In this document: positions 7,510-47,802 of the stretch, piece after piece
Position numbering within the stretch: the first letter of the stretch is position 1
Layout of the letters: every line of letters starts with the position of its first letter
Assembly (NCBI RefSeq): GCF_019904295.1
Contig: NZ_CP065359.1
Span: 2,691,001-2,755,000, forward strand
From: Ruegeria sp. SCSIO 43209
GTDB taxonomy: Bacteria; Pseudomonadota; Alphaproteobacteria; Rhodobacterales; Rhodobacteraceae
DNA: 64,000 bases
Direction of reading: 5' to 3'
Program-made: the position numbers and the translations under genes
Notes under the pieces: generated by a model
What the model saw: the letters and a program-made list of their open reading frames with translations, nothing else
The model's database searches: none
Told to the model about the DNA's origin: nothing

Positions 7510-9207
7510 CTAGTTTGCACGCCTGACTAGGAAATTCAGGAAAAACTGGCCGTCAATACGTCGTGGCTCATACACGAGGCGTCGGTCGGGTTTCAGTCCT
7601 TGAGGCAACTTTACATCAATTCGAACCTTGTAGGGCGTCACCGGTGGACCAAAATGCGAACTTAGGGTGAAGCGGAGTTTCAGTTGACCGTTGTCATCCA
7701 ATGACCCCCGGAAATCCTTGAACCACGGACCACCTCCGGTAAACGCTTGGGCGGACACCAGAGTCACTTTGCTGCCTTTCCGGTTGATCCGCAATGACGC
7801 GAGTGGTTCGATTTTTCCGGGGTAATAGGATTCGTCGCCGCGGGTTGCAGTTTGCCAATAGTCATCATCCCATCTACGCCGAATGGAGATGACGTAATCG
7901 CCGTCAAAACCTACAGCAACCGCAACTTGCTTGCAGACGCGACCCTGTTCTTTCTTAAGCGCAATGAGGGTCTGTTGTTGGTTCAGACCTTCCGCCGGAA
8001 GCCCTAGGTTTTTTCGGGCGTTCCGGTATCTAGTATATGCCGCTCTTGTGCGAGGACCTACGACGCCGTCCGCCGCGCCCGCACTGCATCCGACGCGGTT
8101 CAATTCGCTCTGAATGTCACGGACAAGGCTGCGTGTTAGTGCTTTCTCAGTCGGCTTGTCCTGCGGAGCAACAAATGCGACTTCCGTGTCGTTCGTTTTA
8201 AGTTTGTTGTCATGAGCAGCTTGTAGCCTTGCCTTCTCACGCAGATCATCCCGAAGTGAAAGGGCAAGCGTTACCGCAAAGTGATCATTCTGTTCCTGAT
8301 AGCGGTTTAGAAAGGACTCGATTGCATCCAGCGTTCCGAGTGAACGAGCCAACTCAAAGTCAGCGTAGATTTCACGGTTTTCAGGCCCGACTCGCTTGGC
8401 TTTCGTCGGAACGGGCGCTGTGACCGGAACTAGGTAGATATCTTGGCTTGGTAAAGAACCGTAGGTAAAAGGTTCCTGAAACCCATCTGTCAATTTAAAC
8501 ACGGTGTCGCGGACCTTTCGGAACATCTTACCTAGTTCCAACCCAGGCTCTTCGATGTGCTTTAGCAGCGCTGTGGCATACGGGCTGTTACGCCCCTCTC
8601 CATCAAGAGCCAATGTTCCGCCCTTGGCTGCGTAGCTTACTAAAACTCCGCTAGGGTCAATACGACCCAAGCCGCGACCGATGGAGCGTGTGCCGCCATT
8701 TCTTTCCATCGTGCTCAGGAATGGGTTGTTCCGGCACGCATCGATCAAAACGACCTTTAATCCATCGGCACCCGACAAGGAACTGATAACAGAGTCCAGA
8801 CGTATCGCTTCAAATTCGACATCCTGATCGCTGCGCAGCTCAGAGTTTACAGGAATGAGGTAGTTTGTGTTTTCGATCTCAATCCCGTGACCCGCAAAAT
8901 AGATGATGGCCATATCCGCATCTTTCGCCGCTCGACCGAAGTCGCGCAACGCAATGCGAAGACCACGGTAGTCTAGATTCTGATTATGCCAAACCGTGAA
9001 ACCGATGCGTTGCAAGGCTTCGGCAAGATCCGAGGCATCATTGTCTGCATTTGGAAGATTGGCGACATGTTGATACTCAGCATTTCCAATCACCAATGCG
9101 ACCCGTTTGGTGTCCGCGTGCGCAATATGCGAAACAGAGAACCAAATCGCAAAGCCTATCAGCCATAAGAATGTCCTGAAAAGATATTGAAATGAACTGT
9201 AAAACAA
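7510..9207 (-). CDS. Exported caspase-family protease with peptidoglycan-binding-like domain (1 of 3)
   Basis: 565 residues. An N-terminal signal sequence (about residues 1-31, hydrophobic core ending HIAHA) precedes a caspase p20 fold opening with 'KRVALVIGNAEY'. The catalytic dyad is visible: His107 in 'YFAGHGIE' and Cys158 in 'VLIDACRNNPF'. A helical linker follows, then a PG_binding_1-like domain at about 363-421 ('DGVVGPRTRAAYTRYR') and a beta-rich C-terminal domain beginning 'GFDGDYVISIRRR' that recurs in the third paralogue. The start is a TTG with a G-rich stretch four bases upstream. Likely periplasmic; proteolytic activity and targets are inferred. Confidence 0.88.
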   Translation of the reverse strand: MFYSSFQYLFRTFLWLIGFAIWFSVSHIAHADTKRVALVIGNAEYQHVANLPNADNDASDLAEALQRIGFTVWHNQNLDYRGLRIALRDFGRAAKDADMAIIYFAGHGIEIENTNYLIPVNSELRSDQDVEFEAIRLDSVISSLSGADGLKVVLIDACRNNPFLSTMERNGGTRSIGRGLGRIDPSGVLVSYAAKGGTLALDGEGRNSPYATALLKHIEEPGLELGKMFRKVRDTVFKLTDGFQEPFTYGSLPSQDIYLVPVTAPVPTKAKRVGPENREIYADFELARSLGTLDAIESFLNRYQEQNDHFAVTLALSLRDDLREKARLQAAHDNKLKTNDTEVAFVAPQDKPTEKALTRSLVRDIQSELNRVGCSAGAADGVVGPRTRAAYTRYRNARKNLGLPAEGLNQQQTLIALKKEQGRVCKQVAVAVGFDGDYVISIRRRWDDDYWQTATRGDESYYPGKIEPLASLRINRKGSKVTLVSAQAFTGGGPWFKDFRGSLDDNGQLKLRFTLSSHFGPPVTPYKVRIDVKLPQGLKPDRRLVYEPRRIDGQFFLNFLVRRAN

Positions 9208-9344
9208 AGTGCCCCCGATCGGAACAAGTTGAGACGCCTTAACACTACCACAAAACCTTATTGAATCGAATATTCCGATCCGATTGCCAGCGTATCCTCA
9301 TAAAAAAACATACGGTTTCGCTGAAACCCCTTGGGCAGAGCGCG

Positions 9345-11165
9345 TTATTTCAGAGAGCCTTCCAAGACCACGGAACGCACATTCCATCCAGAGCCATCGA
9401 ACCATTTTGTCGGGGTCACATCGTCAAGATCGCGTCTCCCTCGCGCTTCGTACTGAAACTGCGCGAATGATTTACTGCCCTTGCCGTGGGTTTTGTTTGG
9501 CTTGGATGGCAACCAGTTGGTATAGGTCACGGGTTCTCCGCTGAACCATCGCCATCCGATGACGGCACCGTCTTCTTTGGGGTCCTTTCTGAACCCGAAA
9601 TAAGGTCCGGCCTTATAGCTGATTTTCGTTTTGCTGTCGTATCCCATTTCAAAGAAAGCCGGGTCGCTTGAAATCATCCTGACGATGAACGCATTCTCTG
9701 CAGCCGATGTGATTGCGGCCAAATCCAATCCACATTTTTGCGCCTCGCTGCGCGCACTCTGCACGCTGCCTGAATAGACCAGCGCAACGTAAAGGTTGCC
9801 ACGAAACGTGCCATAGACACTTTTACGTAGACCCAAACAACCAAGAATTTGCGTGACTTCTTCAGATTCACCTAACACCTTCAACTCGGAAATATTCTGT
9901 CGGACAGCGAAGGGATTGCTAATAAAACTCGCGCCATCCTGCGCCTGCGGCCTGATCCCAAGGCCGGAAAGGACGGCAAGATCGGCGTATCCGGATTGTT
10001 CCAACCCCAATTTGGCCTGAAGCGCCTTGATGCCTGATCGTGTCCGCGGCCCGAAAACTCCGTCGGGCACACCAACGTCGAAGCCTGCGCTGTTAAGATT
10101 TTGTTGTATTTCCTTTTTCTGAGTAGGGCTCGGCAAGAGCGCGGCTTCTATTTCATCGAACTGCCCACTCTTTCTGGTCCAGGCAGGTGTGATCTGGGCC
10201 ATCCGCTTCAGTACTTCGGGCTCGGATAACGTTGCTGTGCGATAGGATCTGGCAACCAAATCCCACCCCCTGACAGTGTTCACCTTCATAGCTGCGGCCA
10301 GCGCGTTCTTCTCAGTTGCCTGCGGTTGCACGCCTGATGCGTCAGGTTCTTTAGGGCCCAACAATGGCAATGCAGCTTGTTCTACCTTGGGTACCAAAAA
10401 AATGTCCTCGCCCGGAAGTGAGCCGTAAACAAAAGGCTCCTGATACCCGTCGGTCAGCGCGAACACGCGATCGCGCACCTTGCGGAACAATTTGCCAAGT
10501 TCCAGACCCGGTTGTTCAACATGTTCCAGAAACGCCTGCGCGTAAGGGCTGTTCCGACCGTCGCCATCTTGCGCCAGAGTCCCACCGCGGGCCGCGTATC
10601 CGACCACGACGCCTCCTGGTTCAACCGCGGCCAAACCGCGCCCGATCGAACGAGTGTTCGATGCCTTTTTCATCTGGGTTAAAAACGGGTTGTTTCGGCA
10701 TGCGTCGACAATCACGATATTTAGCGCGGATGAGCCAGCAATGGCATTCACGATAGCGTCCAGACGAATGGCTTCGAATTCGACGTCCCGGTCACTTTTC
10801 AGCGCTGCATTTACCGGTATCAGATAGTTTGTGTTCTCGATTTCGATTCCATGACCCGCGAAATACATAAGCGCCACTTTCGCATTGGCTGCGGCTTCGG
10901 CAAAGTCGCGCAATGCAATGCGCATATCGGTGTAACTCAGGTTTTGATGTTGTGTAACCTCAAACCCAACGCGCTGTAACGCCTTGGATATGTCCTCGGC
11001 ATCATTGGCCGGATTGCGCAGGTCCGGGACGTATTGATAGGCAGAGTTACCTATAACAAGAGCTACGCGCTCGCCCTTAGCCTCTGTCGCAAGCGGCAAG
11101 GTCAAGAGCAAACAAACCACCAACAAACACCAGGCACCGCTTCGCCATTTGATTTCAGGAATCAT
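9345..11165 (-). CDS. Exported caspase-family protease with PG-binding-like and C-type-lectin-like domains (2 of 3)
   Basis: 606 residues from ATG 11165 (an in-frame ATG at 11210 gives a poorer signal peptide). The signal sequence is followed by a caspase fold with His105 ('YFAGHGIE') and Cys156 ('VIVDACRNNPF'). A peptidoglycan-binding-like domain lies at about 348-410 ('DGVFGPRTRSGIKALQAK'). The C-terminus differs from the two paralogues: about residues 440-606 resemble a C-type lectin-like domain, with 'GWRWFSGEPVTYTNW' and a late 'KWFDGSGW' matching the family W-x-W...G...NW pattern. Thus the protease may be tethered to glycan or another surface ligand. Same strand and 137 bases upstream of paralogue 1. 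Confidence 0.87.
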   Translation of the reverse strand: MIPEIKWRSGAWCLLVVCLLLTLPLATEAKGERVALVIGNSAYQYVPDLRNPANDAEDISKALQRVGFEVTQHQNLSYTDMRIALRDFAEAAANAKVALMYFAGHGIEIENTNYLIPVNAALKSDRDVEFEAIRLDAIVNAIAGSSALNIVIVDACRNNPFLTQMKKASNTRSIGRGLAAVEPGGVVVGYAARGGTLAQDGDGRNSPYAQAFLEHVEQPGLELGKLFRKVRDRVFALTDGYQEPFVYGSLPGEDIFLVPKVEQAALPLLGPKEPDASGVQPQATEKNALAAAMKVNTVRGWDLVARSYRTATLSEPEVLKRMAQITPAWTRKSGQFDEIEAALLPSPTQKKEIQQNLNSAGFDVGVPDGVFGPRTRSGIKALQAKLGLEQSGYADLAVLSGLGIRPQAQDGASFISNPFAVRQNISELKVLGESEEVTQILGCLGLRKSVYGTFRGNLYVALVYSGSVQSARSEAQKCGLDLAAITSAAENAFIVRMISSDPAFFEMGYDSKTKISYKAGPYFGFRKDPKEDGAVIGWRWFSGEPVTYTNWLPSKPNKTHGKGSKSFAQFQYEARGRRDLDDVTPTKWFDGSGWNVRSVVLEGSLK

Positions 11166-11342
11166 AAGTACAGACTCAACTCTGAACCGAACAGTTCCTA
11201 ATATTAGCATAAAATTGCTTGATAACCGAGCTTAGGATCAGCTGAAGCGAGATAGAGCAGGAACTGGACTCAACGTAATTTCAAGCCTACGCTAAACCTT
11301 CAAAAAGCGGATTTATTTGCAATTTTCTTCGCGAGGCGTCTT
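11166..11342. promoter_or_regulatory. Divergent promoter region of caspase and DUF928-cyclase units
   Basis: 177 bases, locally AT-richer than the flanks, separating the leftward caspase genes from the rightward DUF928-cyclase pair. It must hold both promoters. I could not identify specific -35/-10 hexamers or an operator with confidence. Confidence 0.45.
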
Positions 11343-11993
11343 GTGTCGTGGAATTGGGTATCAATAGCTGTTTTTGTCTTCGTACTGGCTGCAGGCCTGT
11401 TTCCCAGCGGTTTTGCACTGGCTTCAGGCGATGAGAAAAACGCGGAAAAGTCCTCAGAAATTGTATTCATTCCTCCCGAAATCGGCACGCCAAAAGATCG
11501 AATGGGCGCTGGTACCCGGACTATACCTTCGGATGCCGCTTCTGACCTACTGCTACTGGTTCCAGCAGACGGTGGGTTAACAACTCTGGCCTTTCCGCCG
11601 TTGATCTGGCGGCTGACCCGCGGCCATCGAGGAAATGTAATCGTCAAGCTGAACCCAATCGGGACGACTGCAACAGAACTACACATTATGGGTCCTTTCC
11701 CGCCCGGCGATTATGGTCTGGACCTCAGTAGGTCAAGTTTTATGCTGGATACCGACCAGGTTTACCTTTGGCAACTTGAGCTGCTCGATCCAAACACCGA
11801 CGCGGTGGTCGAACGGTCGTCAGGGTTGATTGAGCGTTTGCCGGAAGAATTTAGATCAGACACTCCGGCCGCAGCTGGTCTGTGGTTCGATGCGCTCTCC
11901 GAACTTGTGGATATAGGCCTCAGCGGCCGAGTGCAGGCGACGAACCCAGCCGTACTCGAAAAATTTCTGAATTCAGCTGGCGTAGGTCCGTGA
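11343..11993 (+). CDS. DUF928-family exported protein
   Basis: 216 residues starting at a GTG, with CGAGG about six bases upstream. A signal peptide (hydrophobic 'SIAVFVFVLAAGLFPSGFAL') is followed by the DUF928 pattern: 'DRMGAGTRT', a central 'LLLLVPADGGLTTLAFPP', and near the end 'VYLWQLELLDP' then 'SGLIERLP'. The function of DUF928 is not known; most members I know of are cyanobacterial. The last codon overlaps the start of the CHASE2 cyclase gene (GTGA), so the two products probably work together on the periplasmic side of the membrane. Confidence 0.82.
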   Translation: MSWNWVSIAVFVFVLAAGLFPSGFALASGDEKNAEKSSEIVFIPPEIGTPKDRMGAGTRTIPSDAASDLLLLVPADGGLTTLAFPPLIWRLTRGHRGNVIVKLNPIGTTATELHIMGPFPPGDYGLDLSRSSFMLDTDQVYLWQLELLDPNTDAVVERSSGLIERLPEEFRSDTPAAAGLWFDALSELVDIGLSGRVQATNPAVLEKFLNSAGVGP

Positions 11994-13900
11994 AATTGAA
12001 GCGTCCAAGGCATGCATGGCAGAGAACGTCATCGCTCATGCCGATTTGGCAACGCTGGGTTTTGGTCTGTGTCATTTCACTGATTGTGGGCATACCTCTG
12101 ATCGAACTCCGAAAAAAAGGCATACTCGAACCACTTGAGCTTCTCCAATACGATTGGACGACATCAGCCTTTGCCGAAGATAAACCTATAGCAGACGTTT
12201 ATCTGGCTACCATCAATGACAAAGATTTGGGCGAATGGGGCTGGCCTGTCCCCGATCTGCAATTGGCGCAGATTGTAAGCAATTTGCTCGCCTCTGGTGC
12301 AACTACGGTGGGTGTAGACATTTACAGGGACGTTCCGGTAGGTGAAGGTCGGGACGCCTTGCTTGAGGTGCTGAGCGATCCCAGAGTTTTCGTGATCTCG
12401 AAACTACAGGACGGCGAGACTGCTGGCATTTCCGCGCCGCAGGACTCGCACACGGGGTTCGCTGATATTCCAATTGACCCTGATGGCGTTGCCCGACGCG
12501 CCTTGTTGTTAGTAAATACGCACGATGGTATTTCCCTGTCACTGCCTATGCATTTGGCCGCGACCCATACCGGGCAACCTGCATTGAAAAGCGCTCCCGA
12601 CAATCCGCGCTATTTGATGTTTGGCGATACAGTTGTAAAACCTTTGGCCACGGGTGCAAACCTGTTCCGCAACGTGGATACGTCAGGCTATCAAATCGTC
12701 ATTGATTACAAAAATACATTGCCGATCACTCGCAGTGTTCCCGCCGCAGAGATTCTGACTCAAACTGGGCTGGATCGCTTTAAAGGAAACGCTGTGATAA
12801 TCGGCGTTACCAGTCATTCCGTAAAAGATTACTTTTTAACACCACTCAACCGGTCAACCGGGTCAAATTTTACCTTTGGGGCCGAAATCCACGCCACGAT
12901 CGTTCAACAGTTGATAGACTACTTCAACGGCCAAGCCACTCCGCTGCGCGCCTTGGACGGCCAGATTCCTGCGTTCATCATCCTCGCTTCGGTCTTCTTA
13001 GGTGCCTGCGTGTCTGTTTTCGTCAGGGTTACCGGCAATGCGGTGTTGTTGGCTGGGATGGGTGGCCTCTTGCTAACGGTTGCGTTGTCCGTGTTTCAAC
13101 AGTTCGCTTTGTTAATGCCCGTCGCGCCATCTCTGTTGGGTTGGACTTTTGGATTTCTTTGCGGCTTTGGTATCATCTCAGGCTTTTCGCGCAACCAAAG
13201 GCGTGCCATCGCGCAGGTGTTTTCTTCTCATCTGTCCGAAGAGCTGGCAGCTGAGATTTGGAAACAACGCAAATATCTAATGTCGGGTGGAAAGCCCCGA
13301 TCTCGGCAACTGTTTGTCACGGCGCTGCTCGCGGATATTGAAGGATCGACCCTTGCTGGTAATTCGATGGATGCCGAAGCGTTCATGGCGTGGATCTCAC
13401 GCATACTGGATCGGCTAAGTGAAATTTCCCGCGCGCATAATGGGTTTGTCGAGAAATACACTGGCGACGGCATATTGGTTGTGTTTGGCGCGCCAATTCC
13501 CAGCGAAACGCACAAACAAAGACAATTTGACGCGCAGGCCGCATTGCGCTGCGCCCATGCCATGCGCAAAGCCGTTGCGACACTGAATGGAACACTTGAA
13601 AACCAACCTGCGTACAAGCTGCGCATTGCACTGAACAGCGGAGACGCAATTGGGGGCACCCTAGGCGTCAGAGGGTCCATGCATTACAACGTCATTGGCG
13701 ACACGATTAACATCGCCGCACGTCTGGAAAGCTGGATAAAGACTCTACCACCTGATAAGGACGGATGCCGTCCGATCTGCATGACGCTGGAAACTGCGCG
13801 GCTGACCGATCCGGACCGCAACTGGCCAGTCATACCGGGGCTTTTTCATGACGATGGCAGAACAGAGATTCAGGTGGTGAAAGCACCGCCAACAACGTGA
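11990..13900 (+). CDS. CHASE2-domain class III adenylate/guanylate cyclase
   Basis: About 636 residues. One N-terminal membrane helix ('WVLVCVISLIVGIPLIEL'), a periplasmic CHASE2 sensor (about 40-330, with 'GWPVPDLQLAQIVSNLLASG'), three closely spaced membrane helices (about 330-410), then a cytoplasmic class III cyclase domain from about 440. Catalytic features are intact: metal-binding Asp in 'LLADIEGST' and 'EKYTGDGILVVFG', and the Asn/Arg pair in 'INIAARLES'. It should make cAMP or cGMP on sensing a periplasmic signal. GTG 11990 (overlap GTGA) is preferred for coupling to the DUF928 gene; ATG 12038 is an alternative. Confidence 0.9.
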   Translation: MKLKRPRHAWQRTSSLMPIWQRWVLVCVISLIVGIPLIELRKKGILEPLELLQYDWTTSAFAEDKPIADVYLATINDKDLGEWGWPVPDLQLAQIVSNLLASGATTVGVDIYRDVPVGEGRDALLEVLSDPRVFVISKLQDGETAGISAPQDSHTGFADIPIDPDGVARRALLLVNTHDGISLSLPMHLAATHTGQPALKSAPDNPRYLMFGDTVVKPLATGANLFRNVDTSGYQIVIDYKNTLPITRSVPAAEILTQTGLDRFKGNAVIIGVTSHSVKDYFLTPLNRSTGSNFTFGAEIHATIVQQLIDYFNGQATPLRALDGQIPAFIILASVFLGACVSVFVRVTGNAVLLAGMGGLLLTVALSVFQQFALLMPVAPSLLGWTFGFLCGFGIISGFSRNQRRAIAQVFSSHLSEELAAEIWKQRKYLMSGGKPRSRQLFVTALLADIEGSTLAGNSMDAEAFMAWISRILDRLSEISRAHNGFVEKYTGDGILVVFGAPIPSETHKQRQFDAQAALRCAHAMRKAVATLNGTLENQPAYKLRIALNSGDAIGGTLGVRGSMHYNVIGDTINIAARLESWIKTLPPDKDGCRPICMTLETARLTDPDRNWPVIPGLFHDDGRTEIQVVKAPPTT

Positions 13901-13941
13901 GATCTGCGAAATTAGTTCTATCGTGGAATTGGTGGTGAATC

Positions 13942-15720
13942 CTATTTTCGCGTCACAACAACATCGACGTACCAATTCTTGTCAAATCGCCCCTGATTGC
14001 TGCGTATTGACGCGTTGGGTGCCAAAGTTGAAGGCAAGTCCAGCGTGACCGAGAAGGGTACTACATAAACGCTGTTGAACAGAAAATTCGTGCGTCCGGA
14101 AACTTTCAAACGCCCTTTGTCGGACAAAGATGCCCGATATTTCTTGGACCGGCTATCACCCCCTTTGGAGCGATCGACCGCATTTACTAGCGCGAATCCA
14201 GCATCGGTCTTGCGATATTTCAGCCAAAGCACCGTGTCGATCCCGGAACCGGCATCCGTGCCCAGCGGGTCCGGTCGCCGACGAATATTAACGACATACT
14301 CGCCGTTGAATCCAATCGCAGCAGAGGTCGCCGACGCCGCTTCCGGAGCAACCAGCGTCTGACCCCGACTTGTCTTTTGAACCGGTTCCTGGCGTTCCGG
14401 CTGAGGAATGCTGCTGAGAACTGCAACGCTTTCTGCAGTCAAATAGCCAGTCCTGGCCACGCCGTTCTTACTTTGAAATCTCTCAAGCGCGGCGCGCGAT
14501 CTGGGGCCGAAAATACCGTCTTCAGGTCCGGCAGCGAAGCCAAGAACATTCAGGCCGCGCTGAATGTTTCGGTAGTCGCCGCGGCTTAGATTCAAATTGG
14601 CTTCGGTATTCGATGTTGCACTTGACCGTGCAGCAGTCTTGTCCTCGGGCACGTCCTGCCGCAGCGGTTCTTCCGTTGTTTTTGGGGCAACATGCGTTGC
14701 CGGATTTCGGTTCGTGCTGCTGGCGGCATCCAAAACACCTTGCGCATATTGACCGGCGCGCGTGTCCGGGTAGAGCTGCGCAATCAATTTCAGCGCATTC
14801 TGTTTCGTGGTTTCGTCTGCCAGTGTCAGGGCTTCGCGCAAAACCCGCTCGGCCGAACTTTGACGCTCGTTCACGGGATCGGTCGCGACCTTCGAGGCTT
14901 CCTGCACGACCGACGGGGCACTCACCGCCGCCGGTACCAGATAGATATCACGCCCGGGCAATGAACCGTAGGTAAAAGGCTCCTGATAACCATCGGTAAG
15001 TTCAAAGACGGTGTCGCGTACTTTTCGAAACAGTTTGCCAAGTTCCAGCCCCGGCACCTCGATATGTTCAAGCAGGGCTTCGGCATAGGGGCTGTTTCGG
15101 CCATCACCGTCCAACGCCAGAGTTCCGCCGCGCGCGGAATAACCGACCAGAACACCTCCGGGATCAATACTGCCCAATCCCTGCCCGATGGACCGCGTTG
15201 CGGTTGTGCGCTCCATATCTGAAAGGAACGGATTGTTTCGGCAGGCGTCAATAAGAACAAGCTTGAGACCTTTCGCCGTAGATACCGCATTTAGCACCGA
15301 GTCCAGCCGTATAGCCTCGAATTCCACATCCTTATCGCTTTTGAGTTCCGCGTTGGTGGGAATCAGGTAATTGGTGTTGTCTATTTCGATGCCATGACCC
15401 GCGAAATAGACCAACACCACGTCAGCTTTCGCAGCCTTATCGGAAAAATCCCGAAGGGCCAGCCGCATTTGACGGTAGTCGAGATCGTATAGTTCGGTCA
15501 CATTAAAACTTATCCGACCAAGCGCGGCCGCTATATCCCGCGCATCATTTGCCGAGTTTGGAATATTTGTAACGTACTCATACTTCGAATTTCCTATGAC
15601 AAGCGCCATACGCCTGGCATCAGATATGTCCGCCAGTACAATTGCAGGTCCGAACATGACAATAGCAATGAAGCCAGACCTAAGTCGCGAAAAAACCAGA
15701 TAAACAAGGTGTACCAGCAT
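13942..15720 (-). CDS. Exported caspase-family protease with PG-binding-like domain (3 of 3)
   Basis: 592 residues from ATG 15720 (a GTG 45 bases upstream is possible). Signal sequence about 1-30, caspase fold with His109 ('YFAGHGIE') and Cys160 ('VLIDACRNNPF'), and a helical linker with 'QNALKLIAQLYPDT'. A peptidoglycan-binding-like domain lies at about 380-440 ('DGIFGPRSRAALERFQSK'), followed by the same beta-rich C-terminal domain as paralogue 1 ('GFNGEYVVNIRRR'). It is convergent with the CHASE2 cyclase gene, 41 bases apart. Paralogue 1 and this one are the closer pair in architecture. Confidence 0.88.
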   Translation of the reverse strand: MLVHLVYLVFSRLRSGFIAIVMFGPAIVLADISDARRMALVIGNSKYEYVTNIPNSANDARDIAAALGRISFNVTELYDLDYRQMRLALRDFSDKAAKADVVLVYFAGHGIEIDNTNYLIPTNAELKSDKDVEFEAIRLDSVLNAVSTAKGLKLVLIDACRNNPFLSDMERTTATRSIGQGLGSIDPGGVLVGYSARGGTLALDGDGRNSPYAEALLEHIEVPGLELGKLFRKVRDTVFELTDGYQEPFTYGSLPGRDIYLVPAAVSAPSVVQEASKVATDPVNERQSSAERVLREALTLADETTKQNALKLIAQLYPDTRAGQYAQGVLDAASSTNRNPATHVAPKTTEEPLRQDVPEDKTAARSSATSNTEANLNLSRGDYRNIQRGLNVLGFAAGPEDGIFGPRSRAALERFQSKNGVARTGYLTAESVAVLSSIPQPERQEPVQKTSRGQTLVAPEAASATSAAIGFNGEYVVNIRRRPDPLGTDAGSGIDTVLWLKYRKTDAGFALVNAVDRSKGGDSRSKKYRASLSDKGRLKVSGRTNFLFNSVYVVPFSVTLDLPSTLAPNASIRSNQGRFDKNWYVDVVVTRK

Positions 15721-16229
15721 TACAACTTCGTCCACAAAAGCCGTAGTTACTTTAACATAATCCACATCAAACCGCGATAAGGCTAAAATAATTTGCTGAG
15801 TGCGTCGCCGATTTCACCCCATTAACTGCGCTAAAACTTCCCGTTTCATAATTTAGTGTGAGTTCCAACTTGCTTTGACTACCCGATCCGCGTCAAACCA
15901 TCGTCAATCGGCACAAATTCTCCAAAACCGTCGGCCAGCTGGCTTAAGGGCATCCATTCAACATGTGATAGGGACACTAAGTAGTGTTCCGCTTTGTATG
16001 TCAGCATTTTTGTAACCGAATACCAAACCCTGCACCTGCAGCGAATGACTGCTTCCCGCCCAAACGACAAATGCTGCGCCCATAGCCTAAGTCTCCTTTG
16101 GGCTCCTTCGAGTCATTTGCCGCGTTCCGCCTAAATGTCTGGTTTTGAGTTCTCGGAGGGAAGGCCTTAGATAGAAGCCAATGGACATTGCTGAACGGGT
16201 GTTACGTGAACCACCTCCTAGTTGCATCG
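15721..16229. other. Intergenic region between caspase locus and transposition genes
   Basis: About 510 bases. A copy of the dispersed intergenic repeat lies at 16037-16066. A minus-strand frame of about 60 codons ending at 15879 partly overlaps that repeat and is probably not a gene. If the element is Tn7-like with cargo to the left, no end needs to lie here; I did not find convincing terminal repeats. Confidence 0.4.
16037..16066 (+). repeat. Dispersed intergenic repeat, copy
   Basis: TGCAGCGAATGACTGCTTC followed by CCGCCCAAACG. The first 13 bases are identical to the copy at 34721. All copies seen lie outside clear genes or at a doubtful gene start. Confidence 0.6.
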
Positions 16230-16668: not shown

Positions 16669-18549
16669 TCAACCTTGCTCCGCCGCCTGCTTATCTTGGT
16701 TCCAACTGTCGTGGAGACAATCTGTTTGGATCGAAGTTTTACCCCCCATCGTCATTTCCCGAACCACATCTCGTGTCTCGTTCGGGTAGGCACGAACAAA
16801 CCCAGCCTCGCAGGGGATAGTCTCAACTTCTCTGCGATCCAATGCCGGACCCAAATGGACCGCTGCTATCTCAAACTGCCGCGCCAATTGGCCCAGCGTT
16901 ACGTAATATTTTTCAAAAGCCTGAATACTCTCTTCAGTGATGTAGCAACGGTAGTGCTGCGTGTCCGGGTTTCGCATTTTTTTCTGCTTTAGGTATCCAC
17001 CATCCCGCAACCGCCGGATCGACCCGACACTAATTCTCAAGCGCGCCGCCGCATCCATCAGAGACAGATCGCCGGAAAACACGCGCTCCGATTTCTCCAA
17101 GATCTCAGCGCAGTCGATAAGAATTCCAGCCAACCCTTCCACGTCCGGATCTCTCCAAACGCCGGTCAGTCGGCCTGCTACCCAATCAGCGACAACGCGA
17201 GCCAGGGCCACCTTGCTCTGTCGGCTGTACTCCGAGAGGGGCAACCTATGACGTGCCCGAGAGGCAATGCGTAGGCCTTCAAGCCTAGTCAGCAAGGTCT
17301 GTACTGAGGACGATGGAACATAGCGCAGAGACGTTCCAAAACGATAGGCTTCCAGAACATTCTGTCGGATCAGCGCCTTCACCTGGACCGGATGGATATT
17401 GAGCTGGACCGCGGTGGATTTGATATTCCGCAACCCAGACCAGAAGTCGAGAACGGCGGCCAGATCCTCATGGCTGACATCTTTCATATCTGACAGGTCG
17501 CTAGCGGTTTGACCTCGAAGATGGGCGAGAATGCCTCGCACCCGAACCTCGCCGACCCCATGTAGCTCCCGCGCGCGTTCAAGCGTGATGAGTTTGGGTG
17601 CTGAGATTTCCGCACCCAGAACTTTCGCACCGGTCTGCAGCGGATAGTTTTCACTCACAAAATCCTGCACGCAAGCCCTGAGGACTGCTGTCGCCGGGTC
17701 CTCTTCAGCTTCTTTAAGCCAAGTGTAGAATTCGCCCATATCGGTCGTAAAATAAGACCGCTTTGAGGAAGACCGGCGCCTGGCACGCTCCAACTCAGAT
17801 TTCAGGGCTTCCGGCCCACTCTTCAGAACCTCGAAACCAGCCGACATGCAAGTACGCTCTTGTTCGAAGTCCAAATCCGAACGGCCGACGCCGCGGTCCA
17901 TGGCAATCGCCATACCAAATGTCAGAGCGGCCTGATGAAGATGCGTTAGCTCCAGCGAGTCCAACCAGTCATCAGCGACCCCAAACTCAATTCGGCGGCT
18001 CAGGTAGGTTTCAAACGAAGATCGCCCAAGCTTTGTTGCGTCTTGAGCGGCTTCAAAGATCAGATCCTGGTGACGCGTCACTTGCTCAACCACGTCGTAG
18101 GTGAGATGCGCATGCGACGCGTTGGGAAGCTGGATCAACGGTACGCTATGTTTGGCACAGGTCCCGATCGGCAGCACCAACCATTCAAGAAGTTGAAACG
18201 CGCTCTCAGGACCCGACCCATCAATGACATCCACAATACACTTCGGACAGATTCGGGTGGTAGCACGGCGGAACGAACCGGAGGTGGCAAAGGAATGCCC
18301 GACGCGGTACCGACAGGGGCCAACCAATCTGGCCGCCGCCAACTCCAACGCTTCAAGTGGCACCCCAGCCAGTTGCGACAGCCGCTCCAGCTGATCCGGA
18401 TGAGCCGAGCAGATATGGGGCCATCTCAGACCCAGATCTGAGCAGAATTCCCTCGTAACACTAAGATTGCGACGTGACAGCCGGGCGACATAGGAAGCAG
18501 GCGTCTCCATGTGATGATGAGGCAGAGTGAGAGCGAGTTGTCGTTTCAT
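16669..18549 (-). CDS. tniQ: TniQ/TnsD-like target-selection protein
   Basis: 626 residues, longer than Tn5053-type TniQ (about 400) and closer to Tn7 TnsD. The N-terminal TniQ domain has 'PASYVARLSRRN' and a zinc ribbon formed by 'RICPKC' and 'GTCAKH' (CxxC...CxxH). The C-terminal two thirds contain helix-turn-helix-like segments such as 'AVQLNIHPVQVKALIRQ' and 'DAAARLRISVGSIRRLRDGGY', expected to recognise a specific attachment sequence. ATG 18549 overlaps the tniB stop (ATGA) with GGAGGG upstream, so it is the last core gene of the four-gene operon. Confidence 0.88.
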   Translation of the reverse strand: MKRQLALTLPHHHMETPASYVARLSRRNLSVTREFCSDLGLRWPHICSAHPDQLERLSQLAGVPLEALELAAARLVGPCRYRVGHSFATSGSFRRATTRICPKCIVDVIDGSGPESAFQLLEWLVLPIGTCAKHSVPLIQLPNASHAHLTYDVVEQVTRHQDLIFEAAQDATKLGRSSFETYLSRRIEFGVADDWLDSLELTHLHQAALTFGMAIAMDRGVGRSDLDFEQERTCMSAGFEVLKSGPEALKSELERARRRSSSKRSYFTTDMGEFYTWLKEAEEDPATAVLRACVQDFVSENYPLQTGAKVLGAEISAPKLITLERARELHGVGEVRVRGILAHLRGQTASDLSDMKDVSHEDLAAVLDFWSGLRNIKSTAVQLNIHPVQVKALIRQNVLEAYRFGTSLRYVPSSSVQTLLTRLEGLRIASRARHRLPLSEYSRQSKVALARVVADWVAGRLTGVWRDPDVEGLAGILIDCAEILEKSERVFSGDLSLMDAAARLRISVGSIRRLRDGGYLKQKKMRNPDTQHYRCYITEESIQAFEKYYVTLGQLARQFEIAAVHLGPALDRREVETIPCEAGFVRAYPNETRDVVREMTMGGKTSIQTDCLHDSWNQDKQAAEQG

Positions 18550-19538
18550 TGCAACCCTCCGTCCAACGAGGGGTCGCCGTGATCCAACCAGCCCATGATG
18601 GTCCTAACATCTATGCTAATGTAGTCTTGGGCAAGAAATGGGTTGAAAGCAGGTATACAACCCGACTTGCGCCGGAATGCTTCTGCAAAATGTCCAAGTC
18701 GGAGCTGGGTTTCTCCGTCGTAGAGCGCCTCTTCTATCCCACTCAGACACATTTCGATGATCATTCCAAACTCATTGCCACCTGCGTGAACCAGCCGCTT
18801 GAGAAACTCTCTCTGTTGAAGTTCAATGGAAGGTGTCAGACCAGACTTCCGAACGAACTCAGTAAAGATCTCTGTGATCTCGGGTTCGTGGGATATCCAG
18901 CTCACTGCACCCAAGTGCACAACATCTATGCGCCTTTTGAGCTGAACATCAGAATTGATCATCTCGATCAGATCGGGCGTGCCAGACAGAACAAGACCAA
19001 CCGGCCAGTCCTTATCGTTCATAAGCGATTTCAGGGTGTTCACCACATCATTTCGGGTTTTGACGCCTTTGCTGATGTAGAGGTCCTGAGCCTCGTCCAG
19101 ATGCACAAACAGGGTCCTTCGCATTTGGAGAAACTGACGCACCTGCGTCCATATGATCCCAACCGATTTGTCCCGAGCGAGCGGATATCCCAAACCGGAC
19201 AGGATCGTCGTACCAACATTTTTTAGCGTCGCGGGTGACGGCACCAATAGCCGGATCACCTCCGCTACATCCTGGCCCGCCGTTGGTAGGATCAGGTCAG
19301 TGTGATTATCAAACAAGCGGTCTGCGGCGGTGGATTTCCCACTGCCAGACGCCCCGATCAGAGCAATACCGCGCGCCTCGCTGCGACTACCCAATCGGAT
19401 AGCCGCTCGTCTTCGGCGCAGATGACGATCAAAAACCAGTTTGAGATCGTGGAACACCTGATGTGAAACGAACATGTCTCGAAGACGCGCTATCTGGACG
19501 TCGATCTCATCAGACGGATCGCCAGGGAGATCAGTCAT
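18546..19538 (-). CDS. tniB: TniB/TnsC-like AAA+ ATPase
   Basis: 330 residues. Walker A 'GASGSGKSTAADRLF', Walker B 'LFVHLDEAQDLY' and sensor 'LVLSGTPDL' are all present. It is the ATP-dependent communicator that links the target selector to the transposase. ATG 19538 is preferred: GGAGG lies eight bases upstream and the start overlaps the tniA stop by eight bases, whereas the longer open frame would run 160 bases into tniA. Confidence 0.9.
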   Translation of the reverse strand: MTDLPGDPSDEIDVQIARLRDMFVSHQVFHDLKLVFDRHLRRRRAAIRLGSRSEARGIALIGASGSGKSTAADRLFDNHTDLILPTAGQDVAEVIRLLVPSPATLKNVGTTILSGLGYPLARDKSVGIIWTQVRQFLQMRRTLFVHLDEAQDLYISKGVKTRNDVVNTLKSLMNDKDWPVGLVLSGTPDLIEMINSDVQLKRRIDVVHLGAVSWISHEPEITEIFTEFVRKSGLTPSIELQQREFLKRLVHAGGNEFGMIIEMCLSGIEEALYDGETQLRLGHFAEAFRRKSGCIPAFNPFLAQDYISIDVRTIMGWLDHGDPSLDGGLQ

Positions 19539-21669
19539 TTTCAATCCTCCATTTCGAAGGTCTGGGACGATCCCCATTGGGGTTTTGCCCCTGGCCAGCT
19601 GTAACTTCGATGGTGTTTTCTCCTTCGTCCAATGACGGGATGACATGGCCGAATAGATCTGGCTCTGGCGGAAGGTCAAAGCCTTCAGGATCATCCGTTT
19701 CGATGCTCAAACCCTGGAACAGATCTTCCCTAGCTCGTCTAAGCCCAGCCGGTGTCTGACGCTTCAGGACAGCCCCGAACCGGCGCTCTTCTTCTGAGTT
19801 CTTTTGGATGATGGTATGCAATGCGTCAGAGACAGTCTTCTCCTGAAGCACGGCCTCGGCCTTGTATTTCAGCCGCAACTGACGCGCGGTCGCTTCCCAT
19901 TGTTCATAAGATACGGCGTCAAAGCACTTCTGCAGAGCGCGCGCCGCATACCACTTTTTCCCGATCTGAATCATGATCCAACCGAGATCGTTCAGGTCAA
20001 CTTTTAAATGAACGTGACGGCGACGGTCGTGCACATAGAACTCACGAAGTGCCTGGCAGGTGTAGTCAATGCTAAATAGCCTCACTCCTTTGCCAAAAAC
20101 ACGCCTGCGATACCTCACACCAAGGGCTTTGCGTCGGGTGGTTTCGGCGAGCTGGGGGACAATACCCATTTTCTCGGCGAGGCGTTTCCAGCAATTATTG
20201 GGGGTTTCGCCATTCAGCCCGCGGTGCGGGATGTTGTGATACACGTCCACAACGAACCTGATGAGGATTTCCATCAGCACGTCATCTGAAAGAGAGGCCA
20301 TCTCCTCCGAAGGATAGTCTCCTCGCTCTTTAGGATCGGAAAATGTGCGACCGGCGAGGAGCGGCATCAGGGCCGTCCCAAAGGTTCGAAAGATACGCTC
20401 CACGCGCCCGCGCAAACGCGGTAGCCCGCCGCGAGGCGTCTCAACAACTCCATGTGCATCAAAGACCGCACTTCGAAACTCATCATCCACAAAAGCAACG
20501 CCAAGATCGGTCACCAGGGAACTCACCCCGCCGTAGTGATGCCAGGTCGATTTGCAGCCAGCCGCAATCGCAAGGTCCGATTTGTCGCGTGTGATGTCAG
20601 ACAAAAGAGCCAGGGCGTCTTGGCAATTCGGCTTTTCCGCCAGTCTCATACCCACCACACATCGCGTGGCACAGTCGATCGCGAGGTAAAGCCAACGACG
20701 CCCACGATCCAGCTTGGCGAGCTCTTCGGGACTCAAATGATCCAGCGCGCCCCTTTCAGCAAGTATCGTTATTAGATCAACACACCATTCATCTATCTCA
20801 ACACGCTCCATTGGATAGCTGGCTGTGACACCTTCCTCATAGAGCGCGAACTTGCGATTGGCGTAGTCCACGCCGTGCCTTTGGACGCATGTGAAATACG
20901 GATCAAGCTCAGAAAGTGCGCGCTCAACTTTGCGCCGCGAAGGAATTGTGAGCTCCGGCTTACCCTCCACCACTCGTTGCTTGTTCACAGTTTTGAACCG
21001 GTCCCGGCACACGTCCGCGACGTTCTTCTTGGTTAGTCTTTTCCGGGTCAAATAGGCTTCGAGGCATTCGCCCAGCAATCTCGAAGCCTCGAGGCAGAAC
21101 CGCGCAGTTCGGTTGCCCGATCTATGTGTGCCCGGGATCAAAGCAAGCGGAGAGCCGCCTGCTTTCTCGTATCGTTTCACCCATTCTCTTAAGGTTCTTG
21201 GACTGGGTGGGTCCCGATAAACGTTCTTCTTTCCGGCCCTCGGATTCCGCCAATTGCTTTGGGCAGCCCGTGCCTGTTTGTTCACATGGGCCTCGATGGA
21301 AGGAATGACACTCTGTAGTGAGAAATCTGTCCGCTTCGCCTCATCGACACGCTCGAACTGGTAAAACCCGTCGACCCAGGAGAAGCGCCAGACTACTTCG
21401 GATCTCACGTCATCTGGCAAGCTTGCTATTGCTTCAACACCCGCACTCATTCGCAAGTCCTGGCGTTCAGGCAGAAAATACCCAGGATCAAAGGTCACAT
21501 CAGGCCTTTGAAGGAGGTCGGCAAATTCGTCGAATGTGAGAGACAGGTTCCGGCCAGTCTCATCAAAATCTTCGAAGTGGTAACCAAAGTCTGTTTTTCG
21601 GTCTAATTTGTACTTCCGGCCATCGATCGTCAGACGGCCAAAGACACTCACTCTGAAAGGCAGGTTCAT
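19531..21669 (-). CDS. tniA: TniA/TnsB-like DDE transposase
   Basis: 712 residues of the Mu/TnsB integrase superfamily. The order is an N-terminal winged-helix region, a basic DNA-binding part ('PSPRTLREWVKRYEKAGG'), the rve catalytic core and a Mu-C-like beta barrel. The DDE triad is likely in 'VEIDEWCVDLI', 'VTDLGVAFVDDEF' and 'RGRVERIFRTF'. It binds the element ends and performs strand transfer. ATG 21669 overlaps the tnsA stop (ATGA) with GGGAGGT six bases before. Presence of TnsA beside it predicts cut-and-paste movement. Confidence 0.9.
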   Translation of the reverse strand: MNLPFRVSVFGRLTIDGRKYKLDRKTDFGYHFEDFDETGRNLSLTFDEFADLLQRPDVTFDPGYFLPERQDLRMSAGVEAIASLPDDVRSEVVWRFSWVDGFYQFERVDEAKRTDFSLQSVIPSIEAHVNKQARAAQSNWRNPRAGKKNVYRDPPSPRTLREWVKRYEKAGGSPLALIPGTHRSGNRTARFCLEASRLLGECLEAYLTRKRLTKKNVADVCRDRFKTVNKQRVVEGKPELTIPSRRKVERALSELDPYFTCVQRHGVDYANRKFALYEEGVTASYPMERVEIDEWCVDLITILAERGALDHLSPEELAKLDRGRRWLYLAIDCATRCVVGMRLAEKPNCQDALALLSDITRDKSDLAIAAGCKSTWHHYGGVSSLVTDLGVAFVDDEFRSAVFDAHGVVETPRGGLPRLRGRVERIFRTFGTALMPLLAGRTFSDPKERGDYPSEEMASLSDDVLMEILIRFVVDVYHNIPHRGLNGETPNNCWKRLAEKMGIVPQLAETTRRKALGVRYRRRVFGKGVRLFSIDYTCQALREFYVHDRRRHVHLKVDLNDLGWIMIQIGKKWYAARALQKCFDAVSYEQWEATARQLRLKYKAEAVLQEKTVSDALHTIIQKNSEEERRFGAVLKRQTPAGLRRAREDLFQGLSIETDDPEGFDLPPEPDLFGHVIPSLDEGENTIEVTAGQGQNPNGDRPRPSKWRIEND

Positions 21670-22490
21670 TTTGCACCTCCCTTCGAAAGCAAAGTGTCGA
21701 GATCAATCAGATGCTTTCTGTCGGCCGTTAGAACGTTTTCAAAGACCGCGATCACGATGCTCCTGAACCCTGCGCCACCGAGCCCCAACAACCGGCACAT
21801 CTCGTCGACCGTGACCGGAAAACAGACGTCACGGGTGACGGACTTGAGATGAGCCTGATGCTCTGTATTTCGCGCCTTTGAGAACTCAACGAAACGTTGT
21901 GCGTTGAGGGCCTCTGCGCGGGTGAAATCGCGCTCTGTAACTAACACGATGTCATCGGCAAAATCCTTGCGCATCGCCACGCGGATCTGCTGAAGCTCAC
22001 GTAAGAAATTCTTCTCCAGCACCACCTTCCACGGCTTCACTGCTATAGCTAATCGGCGACCGTTTTTTAGCTCCGCCAAGAAGTCTATGAAGTGGGTTTT
22101 GCGATTGCCGGATTGATCGCGGTAGCTGATGAGTTGTGGCTGCTCCCAAACGTTAGCCACCGCAGGGTTAGCCAGTAGCAGAAACAACACTCGCTGTTCC
22201 AGTTTGCTTTCAAATTGAACGACCCTCGGGCGGTTTTGCCCAGGCAATTGCATGACAACTCCGCCTCTGGAGCTATGCGTCGATCTCCGGGGGATACCCC
22301 GTGTCGCACGGCTGGGCTCAGGCGACATCTCGCCCGTCAGTGTGAACTCTTCATCTTTCATGTCTGTGATTTGGAGCGCCGACCAGCTTGGGCTGATCGT
22401 GCCTCTCCACCCTCTTTTGGTGTTCTTTGGGCAAAGCCAAACCATCTCATCGCCAATAGGCGACGACGAAACAGTTGACTTTGAGATCAT
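21666..22490 (-). CDS. tnsA: TnsA-like endonuclease
   Basis: 274 residues. The restriction-endonuclease fold of TnsA is recognisable at about residues 88-160, with likely catalytic residues Glu94 in 'VQFESKLEQ', Asp136 in 'THFIDFLAE' and Lys152 in 'AIAVKPWKV'. It cuts the 5' ends of the element so that TnsB/TniA can move it without replication. A C-terminal segment resembles the TnsA winged-helix part that contacts TnsC. ATG 22490 lacks a clear ribosome-binding site; the first ~45 residues are weakly supported. Confidence 0.82.
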   Translation of the reverse strand: MISKSTVSSSPIGDEMVWLCPKNTKRGWRGTISPSWSALQITDMKDEEFTLTGEMSPEPSRATRGIPRRSTHSSRGGVVMQLPGQNRPRVVQFESKLEQRVLFLLLANPAVANVWEQPQLISYRDQSGNRKTHFIDFLAELKNGRRLAIAVKPWKVVLEKNFLRELQQIRVAMRKDFADDIVLVTERDFTRAEALNAQRFVEFSKARNTEHQAHLKSVTRDVCFPVTVDEMCRLLGLGGAGFRSIVIAVFENVLTADRKHLIDLDTLLSKGGAK

Positions 22491-23001: not shown

Positions 23002-23571
23002 TTGCGCCAAGAGACGCAAATAGAGGTATCTGACGTTGAAGAAACTGGGTTAGGCTTGAGCACAATAGTCGAAATAAAATGTGGCAGAGTTCCGACTATT
23101 TTCCTACGAGAGACGCCAAATGCGTGGCAGCCGTACCTGCGCCGCAAACTCCTCGCTTTGCTTAGACAAAGTAAAACCCATAAGGAATTTGCCACGCGGC
23201 TCGGAATTAGACCGTTGGTTGTGCGACGGCTCTTGGACTTGCTTGGCGTCGATTATGTTCAACGCCTCTATAGGCAATATAAAAAGGGAAAAACCTGCTC
23301 AGATATTGCCAACGCAAACGGGATGAAGCCTGCAACACTGTCCAAACTCTTTAGGGAACGAGGCTTTGAGGTACAGCGTGGGGTTCGCAGACCCAAAGTG
23401 CCAAAACATAAACTGCGCCGCATCTGGACAGAGACCCAAGTAATCAACAGGGTGGCGCGAAAACTCAAAATCCACTGGGAAACGGCGCTTCGTCTGCTCG
23501 AGGATGAAAAGCTGATCGTGGGTTACGAAGGTCGACCGAGAAAACTCTCAAAATCATCACGGCCGCCTTAG
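23002..23571 (+). CDS. Helix-turn-helix protein of unknown function
   Basis: Up to 189 residues; the frame is open from 22981, and TTG 23002 is the first plausible start. It contains at least two HTH-like segments, 'FATRLGIRPLVVRRLLDLLG' and 'CSDIANANGMKPATLSKLF', and a basic C-terminus (many Lys/Arg), so DNA binding is likely. It is divergent from the Ner-like gene and sits at the outer side of the transposition operon. No specific family recognised. A short inverted repeat TTTGCG/CGCAAA (23001-23020) overlaps the presumed start. Confidence 0.55.
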   Translation: MRQETQIEVSDVEETGLGLSTIVEIKCGRVPTIFLRETPNAWQPYLRRKLLALLRQSKTHKEFATRLGIRPLVVRRLLDLLGVDYVQRLYRQYKKGKTCSDIANANGMKPATLSKLFRERGFEVQRGVRRPKVPKHKLRRIWTETQVINRVARKLKIHWETALRLLEDEKLIVGYEGRPRKLSKSSRPP

Positions 23572-35758: not shown

Positions 35759-38700
35759 TCAGACGAAATCAAAGGCGTCGGTTGCGCGAACAATTTCTAG
35801 AACGACATCCTCATAGTCTTGATCGCCGCCACCCGTGAGGTCTTCAAAACCCAAAATAATTGACTCACCACCCGGTGCCACGCCCGAAAGGGAATGTTGG
35901 ACTCCGTCTCGATTCATGTCAGCATCATAACTGTGGTAGACAATCTGGTCTGTTGTTGTACCGTTTATGGCCAAGAAGATATCTGCACCATCGTCCAATG
36001 TTGCAACTGCACCAGCTGAATTGACGAAGTTGAATTCATCGGCTTCTCCCAAGCCAGCCAACCAGTCTGCACCATCTTGGACAATAAAGAAGCCAAGCGT
36101 ATTCCCAGCGTCGATACCTTCAACAAGAATAGCATCTTCACCTGGATCATTGGCGTTGTCGAACAGCACGCGAGCGTTTATCAAAGTACCAGCTTCATCG
36201 ATCTCATATAGGCCAACGACGTTGTCGTATCCCGCAAACCCAAGATCGACGATGTCGATCTCAAATTGGGTGCCACCATTGGATGTCAGGAAGAGCTGAT
36301 TGATCACACCGTTAACAAAGCTTGGGTCCACTGCTTTCCCCTCAGCAAGTTCGGGCAGTAGGTTCTCAAATGTGATGGTAGTATCATCCTCAAATGCGAC
36401 AGCCATGAAATCACCGTCAGAGTAGTTCCCCTCTAGCGTGACCCGCGTATCAAAATCGCCGTCCTGATCAGAGTCGATGTCCAAAATTGCTGAGCCAAAC
36501 GTGACCAACACATCTTTTCTAGAAAAGGCGGAGTTTTCCACTACAAGCTTGTCAGATGTGTCAAAGTTCCTAAGGCTATCTCCGTCCAATTCTTCTGCAT
36601 TCCCTCGGACGGTCTCTTCGCCATCAGCTGAGTCTAGATCAAACTCTTCTACTTCTTCGGTCGCTTCAATTTCTTCTGGTGAATTGGCTTCCTCGACCCT
36701 CCAAGCTGGACCACCATCCCTGTACCCCAGTGTTTCAAGGACCGCGACATCGATCCCGGACAAAGTCTCATTCGGGCCTCCATATCCTGCAGTTATCAAC
36801 GAGTCAGTGCCGAAATACAGGTGCTTTTTGTCAAGTTCAGTACGAACGAGGGCTGTTCCCTCATTCGACTCGTCGGTCAACAGAAAATAACTTTCACCCT
36901 GACCCTGATCGTTCGTTTCTTCCTGAATATGAAAATCCCACGGGTACGACACTGTTCCGACTCCGAGGCCGTGCAAGATTTCATGTGTAAACACCGTAGC
37001 CATATCATAAGACGGTAGTTGCCGAGATGCTTCATTGGGACCACCTGCTCCACTGTACCAAGCTGGTACTTTAGTCGGATCAATAAGTATTCGCATGTCT
37101 GGATCGGCGGTATTTGTATTAGTCACATACTCGTAAAGGGCCTGAGGCACGAACCGCTCGCCAACGCCACCATTGATCGGACTTCTAATTTCAAGTCTCA
37201 CTGGACTATCGACCTGGTCTGCTTCGGCAATTGAATCTCCAGCTATGTCCGCAATGGTATAGACAAGTTCAATCTCCAGATCTGGAACATATGAGTTGGC
37301 TTCATAAACACGTGCGGCAGCAGCAAATAAATCATTCTCCAGATAACGCTCTAAGTCTTGATCAACTTGAAACCCATTACGTTCAAAAGTGATATTCGTC
37401 CTGCTGGTTTGGAGTGGGTCATTCCCGGAAGCATCATCATCGGTTATTGTTCCATAAACTAGATCAAAGACATCACCAGAAAACGGGTCGAGCACACTAC
37501 CGGGAAGAGCTTGTCCGGTTACGTCAAACTGTTCTAACTGTGCCGTTGATTCAGTAATATTGATTGCCAGACCAAATACGATTTCGGAGTCTGGTTCGAT
37601 TACGGGATCGTCTACGATTGGCACCCTGACCAATTCACTTAAAGTTTGTCCTGCCTGGATAGTGATTTTCCTGGTGGCCGTTTCGGCGGTTCGAAAATCC
37701 GACCACTCACTTATATCTCCAAGTGCGACGCCGCCATTCATCGCCGGCATTGATCCGTCATAGAGTTGGACTAGGTCCAGAACAAGAATACCGGTGTCAA
37801 AGGCGTCGCTGAGCTCTACATTGAACTCCAGAAATCCACTGGATTCATTGGCAACCTGATCGGCCATCGAAATGCTGATGAGTCCTTCCACACCTACAAA
37901 ATCAGAAAGAGTCAATTCGGATACTTCTTCGACGATTAACCTATGGTTCGCTTCGCCATTTCCGTTTGTGTCGATAAGGACATTCCAAGTAGTGCCAATT
38001 TCTGGATCAATCTCCAGTACCACTTCGCCCCGTTGCCCCGTAAAGCCGTCGGGTTTCAACGTGAAATTCTGATTTCCCGATTGAAAAGGCTGTGCGTCCC
38101 ACATGGACAAATCAATTTTGTCGCCGTCCTCGCGACTAAAGTCCTTAATTGTGTCGGTGCCGAATAGTTCATCGAATAGGCCTGTTCCGGGCGCTTCTTC
38201 TTCATAGGCCGCGAAGTGATCCGCGCCTAGTCCTCCGGTAAGTGTGTTCTCCCCGGTGCTTAGGAAAAGAAAATCATTTGATGAACTTCCAATAATAGTA
38301 TCGTTGCCTTCTTGCCCATAAAGATACCAGGGGATGGGTTCGGCGCTTGATGCATCTATGCGATCATTACCATCTCTGCCTCGAAACTCTTCATGGCCAA
38401 GCACTTCATATCTAATAAACTCTACCGCTGTTCCCAACCTGTAGTAGACGTCTCGAATGGATTGCGCTTGCTCTAGCGTGGGCAATGTGACGATGTCATT
38501 GAGATTGGTACCGGAGCGCCACGTAGTAGTCATTAATTGAGTATTCGTTGCGTTTGCAATTGAAGCAAAATCTACAACATTGTCACCAGTCTCAGGTGGC
38601 CGCACGATTTCAGGGAAGCCTTGGTATGGTTCGCCGGGTATATAGCTTTCGTCGCTTAGGACCCAGATATAGTCAGGTATGGAATTTGAAAAATTGTTCT

Positions 38701-39427: not shown

Positions 39428-39449
39428 TTCGCTCGAATGACTGCTTTGC
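39398..39449 (-). repeat. Dispersed intergenic repeat, copy overlapping the doubtful start of the giant protein gene
   Basis: On the minus strand GGCCGCTTCGAGCCCAAAGT, closely matching the copy at 35347; a second block (GCGAATGACTGCTTTGC on the plus strand) follows. This and the copies at 35347 and 35624 flank the same gene. Confidence 0.55.
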
Positions 39450-47800: not shown

Positions 47801-47802
47801 GA

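Follow-up and report, generated by a model that had tools for sequence, protein, structure and literature searches.

A recurring cluster of caspase-fold proteases, a DUF928 protein and a CHASE2 cyclase in Ruegeria, and its possible role in envelope signalling

The window analysed here (64,000 nucleotides of Ruegeria sp. SCSIO 43209, contig NZ_CP065359.1, positions 2,691,001 to 2,755,000) holds a cluster of five genes, encoding three caspase-fold proteases (caspases A, B and C), a DUF928 protein and a CHASE2-class III nucleotidyl cyclase. The source genome has three C14 matches, every one inside this cluster. The features, in window coordinates, are as follows.

7510..9207, minus strand: caspase A (565 residues, TTG start), with an N-terminal hydrophobic stretch and a C14 domain (34-250)
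9345..11210, minus strand: caspase B (621 residues, with a Met at residue 16, position 11165), with a C14 domain (48-263) and PG_binding_1 (366-414)
11343..11993, plus strand: DUF928 protein (216 residues), with an N-terminal hydrophobic stretch, an Arg-ending unit, a predicted β-sandwich and C-terminal helices
11466..11519, plus strand: the DUF928 unit, FIPPEIGTPKDRMGAGTR (codons 42-59), with a putative cut after Arg59
11990..11993, plus strand: GTGA overlap of the DUF928 stop and the likely cyclase start
11990..13900, plus strand: CHASE2-class III nucleotidyl cyclase, with one transmembrane candidate, CHASE2, three transmembrane candidates and a cyclase domain
13942..15765, minus strand: caspase C (607 residues, GTG start, ATG at 15720 possible), with a C14 domain (51-267) and PG_binding_1 (395-449)

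The DUF928 stop (TGA, 11991-11993) runs into a possible GTG start of the cyclase at 11990, an overlap already recognized in the preliminary description and suggestive of translational coupling. That description ended the cluster at 15720, which proves to be an internal ATG; the caspase C reading frame extends to 15765. Its numbering of the catalytic cysteines (Cys158/156/160) fits if the second and third protease genes start at the later Met (residue 16 of each open reading frame (ORF)). All three caspases and the DUF928 protein have a hydrophobic stretch close to the N terminus (15-residue mean hydropathy between 1.8 and 2.8). The signal peptides first ascribed to the caspases stand as predicted export, a call made, like that of the four transmembrane candidates in the cyclase, from hydropathy alone. 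Caspase B has a second hydrophobic stretch at residue 150, within the caspase core (mean hydropathy 1.73).

The three proteases are clear members of Peptidase_C14 (129, 141 and 123 bits; Pfam cut-off 21.4). The His of AGHG and the Cys of DACRNNPF are invariant in 11/11 cluster caspases, bearing out the early claim of three paralogues with intact dyads, and in 37/37 aligned relatives (a hand-picked subset, from a search giving the best 120 of 5065). Peptidoglycan-binding domains, initially proposed for all three, are present in B and C (PG_binding_1 above cut-off), with the match in caspase A falling under it (21.3 vs 23 bits); the caspase A C-terminal region resembles that of caspase C. The caspase B C terminus seems to be a C-type-lectin-like domain, judged from a match to a mannose-receptor chain among PDB sequences (E 0.0023), from Lectin_C hits at the same place in 4/4 B-type caspases scanned (all under the Pfam cut-off, E 0.0014 to 0.24) and from Lectin_C in the precomputed domain annotation of a number of caspase relatives. 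In both sequence and fold, the best match of the caspase B domain is MALT1, an Arg-specific paracaspase (46-275 aligned). Equivalents of Asp365 and Asp462, which line the MALT1 S1 pocket, are Asp in 37/37 relatives. The cluster caspases are predicted to be of paracaspase type, preferring Arg at P1.

The DUF928 protein scores 31.3 bits against PF06051 (Pfam cut-off 26), and its closest relative, from R. arenilitoris, is 86% identical. Residues 66-169 or so are predicted to form an Ig/FnIII-like β-sandwich, followed by C-terminal helices. A PDB sequence search with the protein found no credible relative and FoldSeek with the model no match at E 0.001 or better; a resemblance of the model to the MtxA C-terminal domain fold is a lead only. 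Ahead of the sandwich lies the Arg-ending unit, whose final residue is basic in 87/88 sequences and is the strictest position of the unit. Two cyanobacterial DUF928 proteins carry 5 and 7 tandem copies. Tandem Arg-ending repeats of ~20 residues occur in DUF928 proteins of L133, L134 and L127, all of the cyanobacterial class; in L133 and L134 every full repeat terminates in Arg, the next residue being mostly Gly or Asn.

The cyclase matches both CHASE2 (136.1 bits, cut-off 26.3) and Guanylate_cyc (39.3 bits, cut-off 21.9). By eye, its alignment retains both metal Asp residues, the Lys and the Asn/Arg, but has Asn at the second of the positions that bear on adenylate versus guanylate specificity.

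To place the cluster among its relatives, an alignment of 30 DUF928 relatives (A1; 30 of 31 homologues, many metagenomic, the short P0009 being left out) was searched against genomes of the genus and family. It matched 6/54 genomes of the genus and 3/394 sampled across the family; the latter scan scored mostly ≤7 candidates per genome, making misses possible there. Merging duplicates gives seven family loci: the window, L010, L011, L012, L013, L029 (in G575, which belongs to another genus) and, in G801, a broken DUF928. In each of the six intact loci (five Ruegeria, one of another genus) DUF928 has within 5 kb a CHASE2-cyclase together with between one and three C14 caspases. Gene order is shuffled. 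In the window, L010 and L011, CHASE2 follows DUF928 and the caspases lie on the opposite strand; L012 and L013 have CHASE2, DUF928, then caspase(s); and L029 has DUF928, caspase, CHASE2. Co-occurrence beyond chance outside cyanobacteria had been named beforehand as the test of the idea, and the trio's recurrence in 6/6 intact loci indicates that the grouping is not chance. C14 occurs in 18/54 genomes of the genus, including all 5 with an intact DUF928 (p 0.003, or p 0.013 with the broken G801 counted). Four-base gene overlaps recur in L010, L011 and L013.

Several loci bear signs of exchange and loss. Caspases A and B of L013 are 73% and 71% identical to those of the window, against 40% and 36% for CHASE2 and DUF928, which suggests that module parts reassort between loci. 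L011 keeps caspase C and has short caspase-like remnants upstream of DUF928, where the window has caspase B (best 52% over 65 residues to caspase B). In G801 (L051:9927-10639) DUF928 lies in pieces across several frames, in a genome lacking a C14 match; the module there may be decaying or lost. The flanks of five loci yield no ORF match at corresponding places, placing the loci in unrelated genomic contexts: among 72 flanking ORFs, matches elsewhere are confined to ABC-ATPase-like and kinase/response-regulator-like ORFs (families named by eye, ≤56% identity). Indirect support comes from 11 of the 30 DUF928 relatives (the window's own excluded), which sit on contigs equal in size to ones bearing listed caspase relatives; this pairing was made by eye, five of the contigs are <16 kb and one of the 11 is L011. 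Taken together, sequence comparison supports well the reading of the five genes as a travelling module, with a proposed role in envelope signalling.

Four members of the genus with no DUF928 match (G805:C12, G796:C6, G788:C5 and G797:C12) have in common a different set of three C14 genes, spread over ~8 kb with the third gene facing the other way, perhaps another multi-caspase system.

Further afield, the Pfam DUF928 model finds 6/385 Alphaproteobacteria, the window's genome included, a lower bound given that the window protein itself came just over the cut-off in that scan (27.7 bits). The other five loci all have a CHASE2-cyclase within ~3 kb of DUF928. One of them (L023, G007) places a TPR-CHAT gene, encoding a caspase-fold protease of a different family, between the two. 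Two-partner-secretion genes lie near such CHAT-DUF928-CHASE2 sets (ShlB/POTRA, ShlB-type, in L023; a TPS domain in the Geitlerinema record L014) and are a possible further module partner.

DUF928 is common in the cyanobacterial class (that to which G826, the source genome of L014, belongs), occurring in 49/59 genomes. We took seven of these, hand-chosen from the genomes with multiple DUF928 matches (between 4 and 20 per genome), and analysed the neighbourhoods of the best 58 of 70 matches, the 12 weakest being dropped. CHASE2 lies within 5 kb of 34/58 (1.4 expected, ~25x), CHAT within 5 kb of 28/58 (2.5 expected) and both of 23/58; C14 was found within 5 kb of 0/58 (0.6 expected). The statement in the preliminary description that caspase, CHASE2 and DUF928 genes occur together in some cyanobacteria is thus not borne out for C14 in these genomes, where CHAT is the neighbour. 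Expected counts assume random placement, and neighbouring DUF928 copies are not independent. Nine CHAT-CHASE2 neighbours have identical open-frame lengths in the CHAT and CHASE2 searches and look like single fused proteins; with CHAT fused to CHASE2 left out, CHAT lies within 5 kb of 26/58. Merging the 58 genes into 49 clusters gives unfused CHAT at 25/49, CHASE2 at 31/49 and both at 21/49. The CHASE2 protein of L014 gives a poor alignment across the cyclase region and is GGDEF-like by eye, which suggests that CHASE2 outputs vary between loci. Because CHASE2 recurs near DUF928 while the protease is C14, CHAT or undetected, DUF928 and CHASE2 seem to make up the more constant pair, with a caspase-fold protease as a frequent, exchangeable partner.

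That the five genes work together we regard as very likely. From their composition, conservation and predicted folds, we infer a possible route by which exported components would signal inwards. The proteases would be held near the cell wall through their peptidoglycan-binding domains, and a trigger sensed by the variable caspase C-terminal regions (lectin-like in B) would switch them on. The active protease would cleave DUF928 after the conserved Arg closing its N-terminal unit (Arg59 in the window), and the freed peptide or the remaining DUF928 core would act on the CHASE2 domain, changing cyclase activity (probably cAMP). DUF928 would thereby serve the protease as substrate and the receptor as ligand. 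A protein-type signal for CHASE2 has precedent in the NsrA pathway of Sinorhizobium meliloti. The full chain, from cleavage after Arg to altered cyclase output, we hold as a serious but tentative proposal, somewhat short of probable. Its extension to an undescribed, widespread form of envelope signalling is doubtful: here paracaspase or CHAT proteases would cut exported DUF928 after Arg, the products would be CHASE2 ligands with a varying inner output, some cyanobacteria would release strings of near-identical ~20-residue peptides, and MtxA would be a distant member.

Several observations weigh against cleavage of DUF928 as the signalling step. Four alphaproteobacterial loci (G148, G200, G292 and G370) gave no C14 or CHAT detection in the 7-20 kb fetched, with a CHAT profile that drew on just two sequences; the DUF928 Arg is kept in the three of them that were aligned (G148 was left out of the 11-row alignment). 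In the cyanobacterial class, 30/58 DUF928 genes lack a CHAT neighbour within 5 kb, the putative CHAT parts of the fusions have low scores (40-64 bits) and multi-unit arrays show no significant enrichment next to CHAT plus CHASE2 (4/5 vs 19/53, p 0.07). The caspase-MALT1 alignment ends short of the third S1 acid, Glu500, and at that position the caspase presumably has Leu. Ten-residue means of model confidence from residue 41 of DUF928 are 88, 76 and 70; with such middling values the unit may be packed or structural.

These points leave room for a different role of the unit, as a docking or anchoring motif (for CHASE2, the cell wall or an outer-membrane partner), the caspases processing something else. 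Retention of the unit in DUF928 copies with no detected nearby protease fits a motif of this kind, as does the good model confidence of its first half, and tandem repeats are compatible with a multivalent binding tag. Against a tag, the strictest residue is basic, the kind that the partner protease is predicted to favour at P1, and in L133 and L134 every full repeat has a terminal Arg, with Gly or Asn as the usual next residue; we consider docking unlikely. Slightly less likely again is a reverse flow, in which DUF928 and the CHASE2-cyclase sense a ligand and raise cAMP, the caspases being downstream envelope effectors of remodelling or killing (induced cell death or an anti-competitor arm). 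The alphaproteobacterial loci with no detected protease imply that DUF928-CHASE2 can probably work alone, and the varying caspase number, one to three per locus, also fits; yet the single-frame CHAT-CHASE2 fusions suggest direct coupling, and reverse flow leaves the near-invariant Arg unit unexplained.

A last alternative concerns mobility. Directly beside the cluster is a Tn7-like transposition module (16669-22490, minus strand), followed by a gene for a helix-turn-helix (HTH) protein.

16669-18549, minus strand: TniQ
18546-19694, minus strand: TniB
19531-21669, minus strand: TniA/TnsB-like transposase
21666-22490, minus strand: TnsA-like endonuclease
23002-23571: HTH protein

TniA relatives occur in 15 other genomes of 149 searched. 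A repeat search found no convincing Tn7-like element ends, and four related TniA loci fetched from these 15 genomes gave no caspase, DUF928 or CHASE2 match; the cluster as Tn7-like cargo was tentatively set aside on these two grounds. Spread by plasmid was likewise set aside, the window DUF928 having no match in a plasmid collection at E 0.01; the Geitlerinema DUF928 matched 21 plasmid records, all with cyanobacterial genus names. Co-inheritance on a mobile cassette of genes lacking a joint function is very unlikely, for although the loci lie in unrelated contexts and a Tn7-like module adjoins the cluster in the window, composition is constant despite the shuffled order, genes overlap, DUF928-CHASE2 adjacency in the cyanobacterial class far exceeds expectation and the L010 cluster has no Tn7-like protein match in its 20.6 kb.

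Further along the window lies a probable second island (35759-48025), with its two RTX-repeat proteins encoded in a lower-GC stretch.

35759-39427: large RTX-repeat protein
40085-43078: large RTX-repeat protein with an M10 peptidase domain
46631-47896: phage-type integrase, beside tRNA-Arg
47949-48025: tRNA-Arg

To our knowledge, little has been established about what bacterial caspase homologues do or which proteins they naturally cut. In the present cluster, gene context points to a candidate substrate that has one predicted cut site and is encoded next to a receptor with a measurable output. Were the protease-DUF928-CHASE2 class as widespread as proposed, bacterial caspases would gain a natural substrate and a non-death role, and a paracaspase-like protease coupled to a receptor would parallel animal paracaspase signalling. 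A function for DUF928 would explain many genes at once, because most genomes of the cyanobacterial class carry it and its literature is sparse. In the open-licence literature searched, DUF928 is named in PMC5587647 alone; that paper reports a cyanobacterium in which WD40, CHASE2 and DUF928 genes occur together, and it cites a Synechocystis DUF928 protein that responds to acid stress. The same literature, as far as its accessible text goes, yielded no description of caspase or CHAT with DUF928 plus CHASE2, of C14/CHAT exchange or of Arg-ending repeats. Within that scope the module, the exchange and the repeats appear to be new, the part families being known.

Among defence systems, Pycsar was rejected: PycC models do match the cyclase (45.5 bits at best), yet 0/6 other proteins scanned match a Pyc effector model. 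PADLOC gave weak matches alone (caspase 22-26 bits, PycC up to 45.5 bits), and a known defence system was set aside. EACC1-associated caspases (NF047832) were rejected too, the window caspases scoring 57.7, 63.6 and 55.0 bits against a cut-off of 140. TRADD-N/EACC1-type systems do contain caspases, and one variable component can bear an extracellular CHASE2; DUF928 is not named in the sections of the report available (PMC8195603).

The bacterial orthocaspases and metacaspases belong to the same family as the window caspases, with no metacaspase among the best 50 matches of the caspase B search. A 2012 metacaspase survey records a peptidoglycan-binding domain in 11 sequences and a single fusion of metacaspase and CHASE2, from Trichodesmium (PMC3501461); the term 'DUF928' has 0 occurrences in the texts of PMC3501461 and PMC6426788. 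MALT1 (C14B) shares the His-Cys dyad and the two pocket acids. It differs in being an animal protein of several domains, death and Ig domains among them (PMC4357240), whereas the window caspases have export-like N termini and peptidoglycan-binding domains. The CHAT-DUF928-CHASE2 clusters share the DUF928-CHASE2 pair and a caspase-fold protease, but CHAT replaces C14. Magnetospirillum MtxA, according to the text available, is also followed by a CHASE2 cyclase (PMC4439547). In the NsrA-CHASE2 cyclase-Clr pathway of S. meliloti, CHASE2 cyclases raise cAMP upon a protein sensed via outer-membrane NsrA (PMC13001267); there too an envelope protein relays a protein signal to CHASE2 cyclases, the difference being that the accessible part of that source mentions neither a caspase nor DUF928 as a component. 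With a caspase-fold protease acting through a partner protein, the Ruegeria module would be kin to protease-gated envelope signalling.

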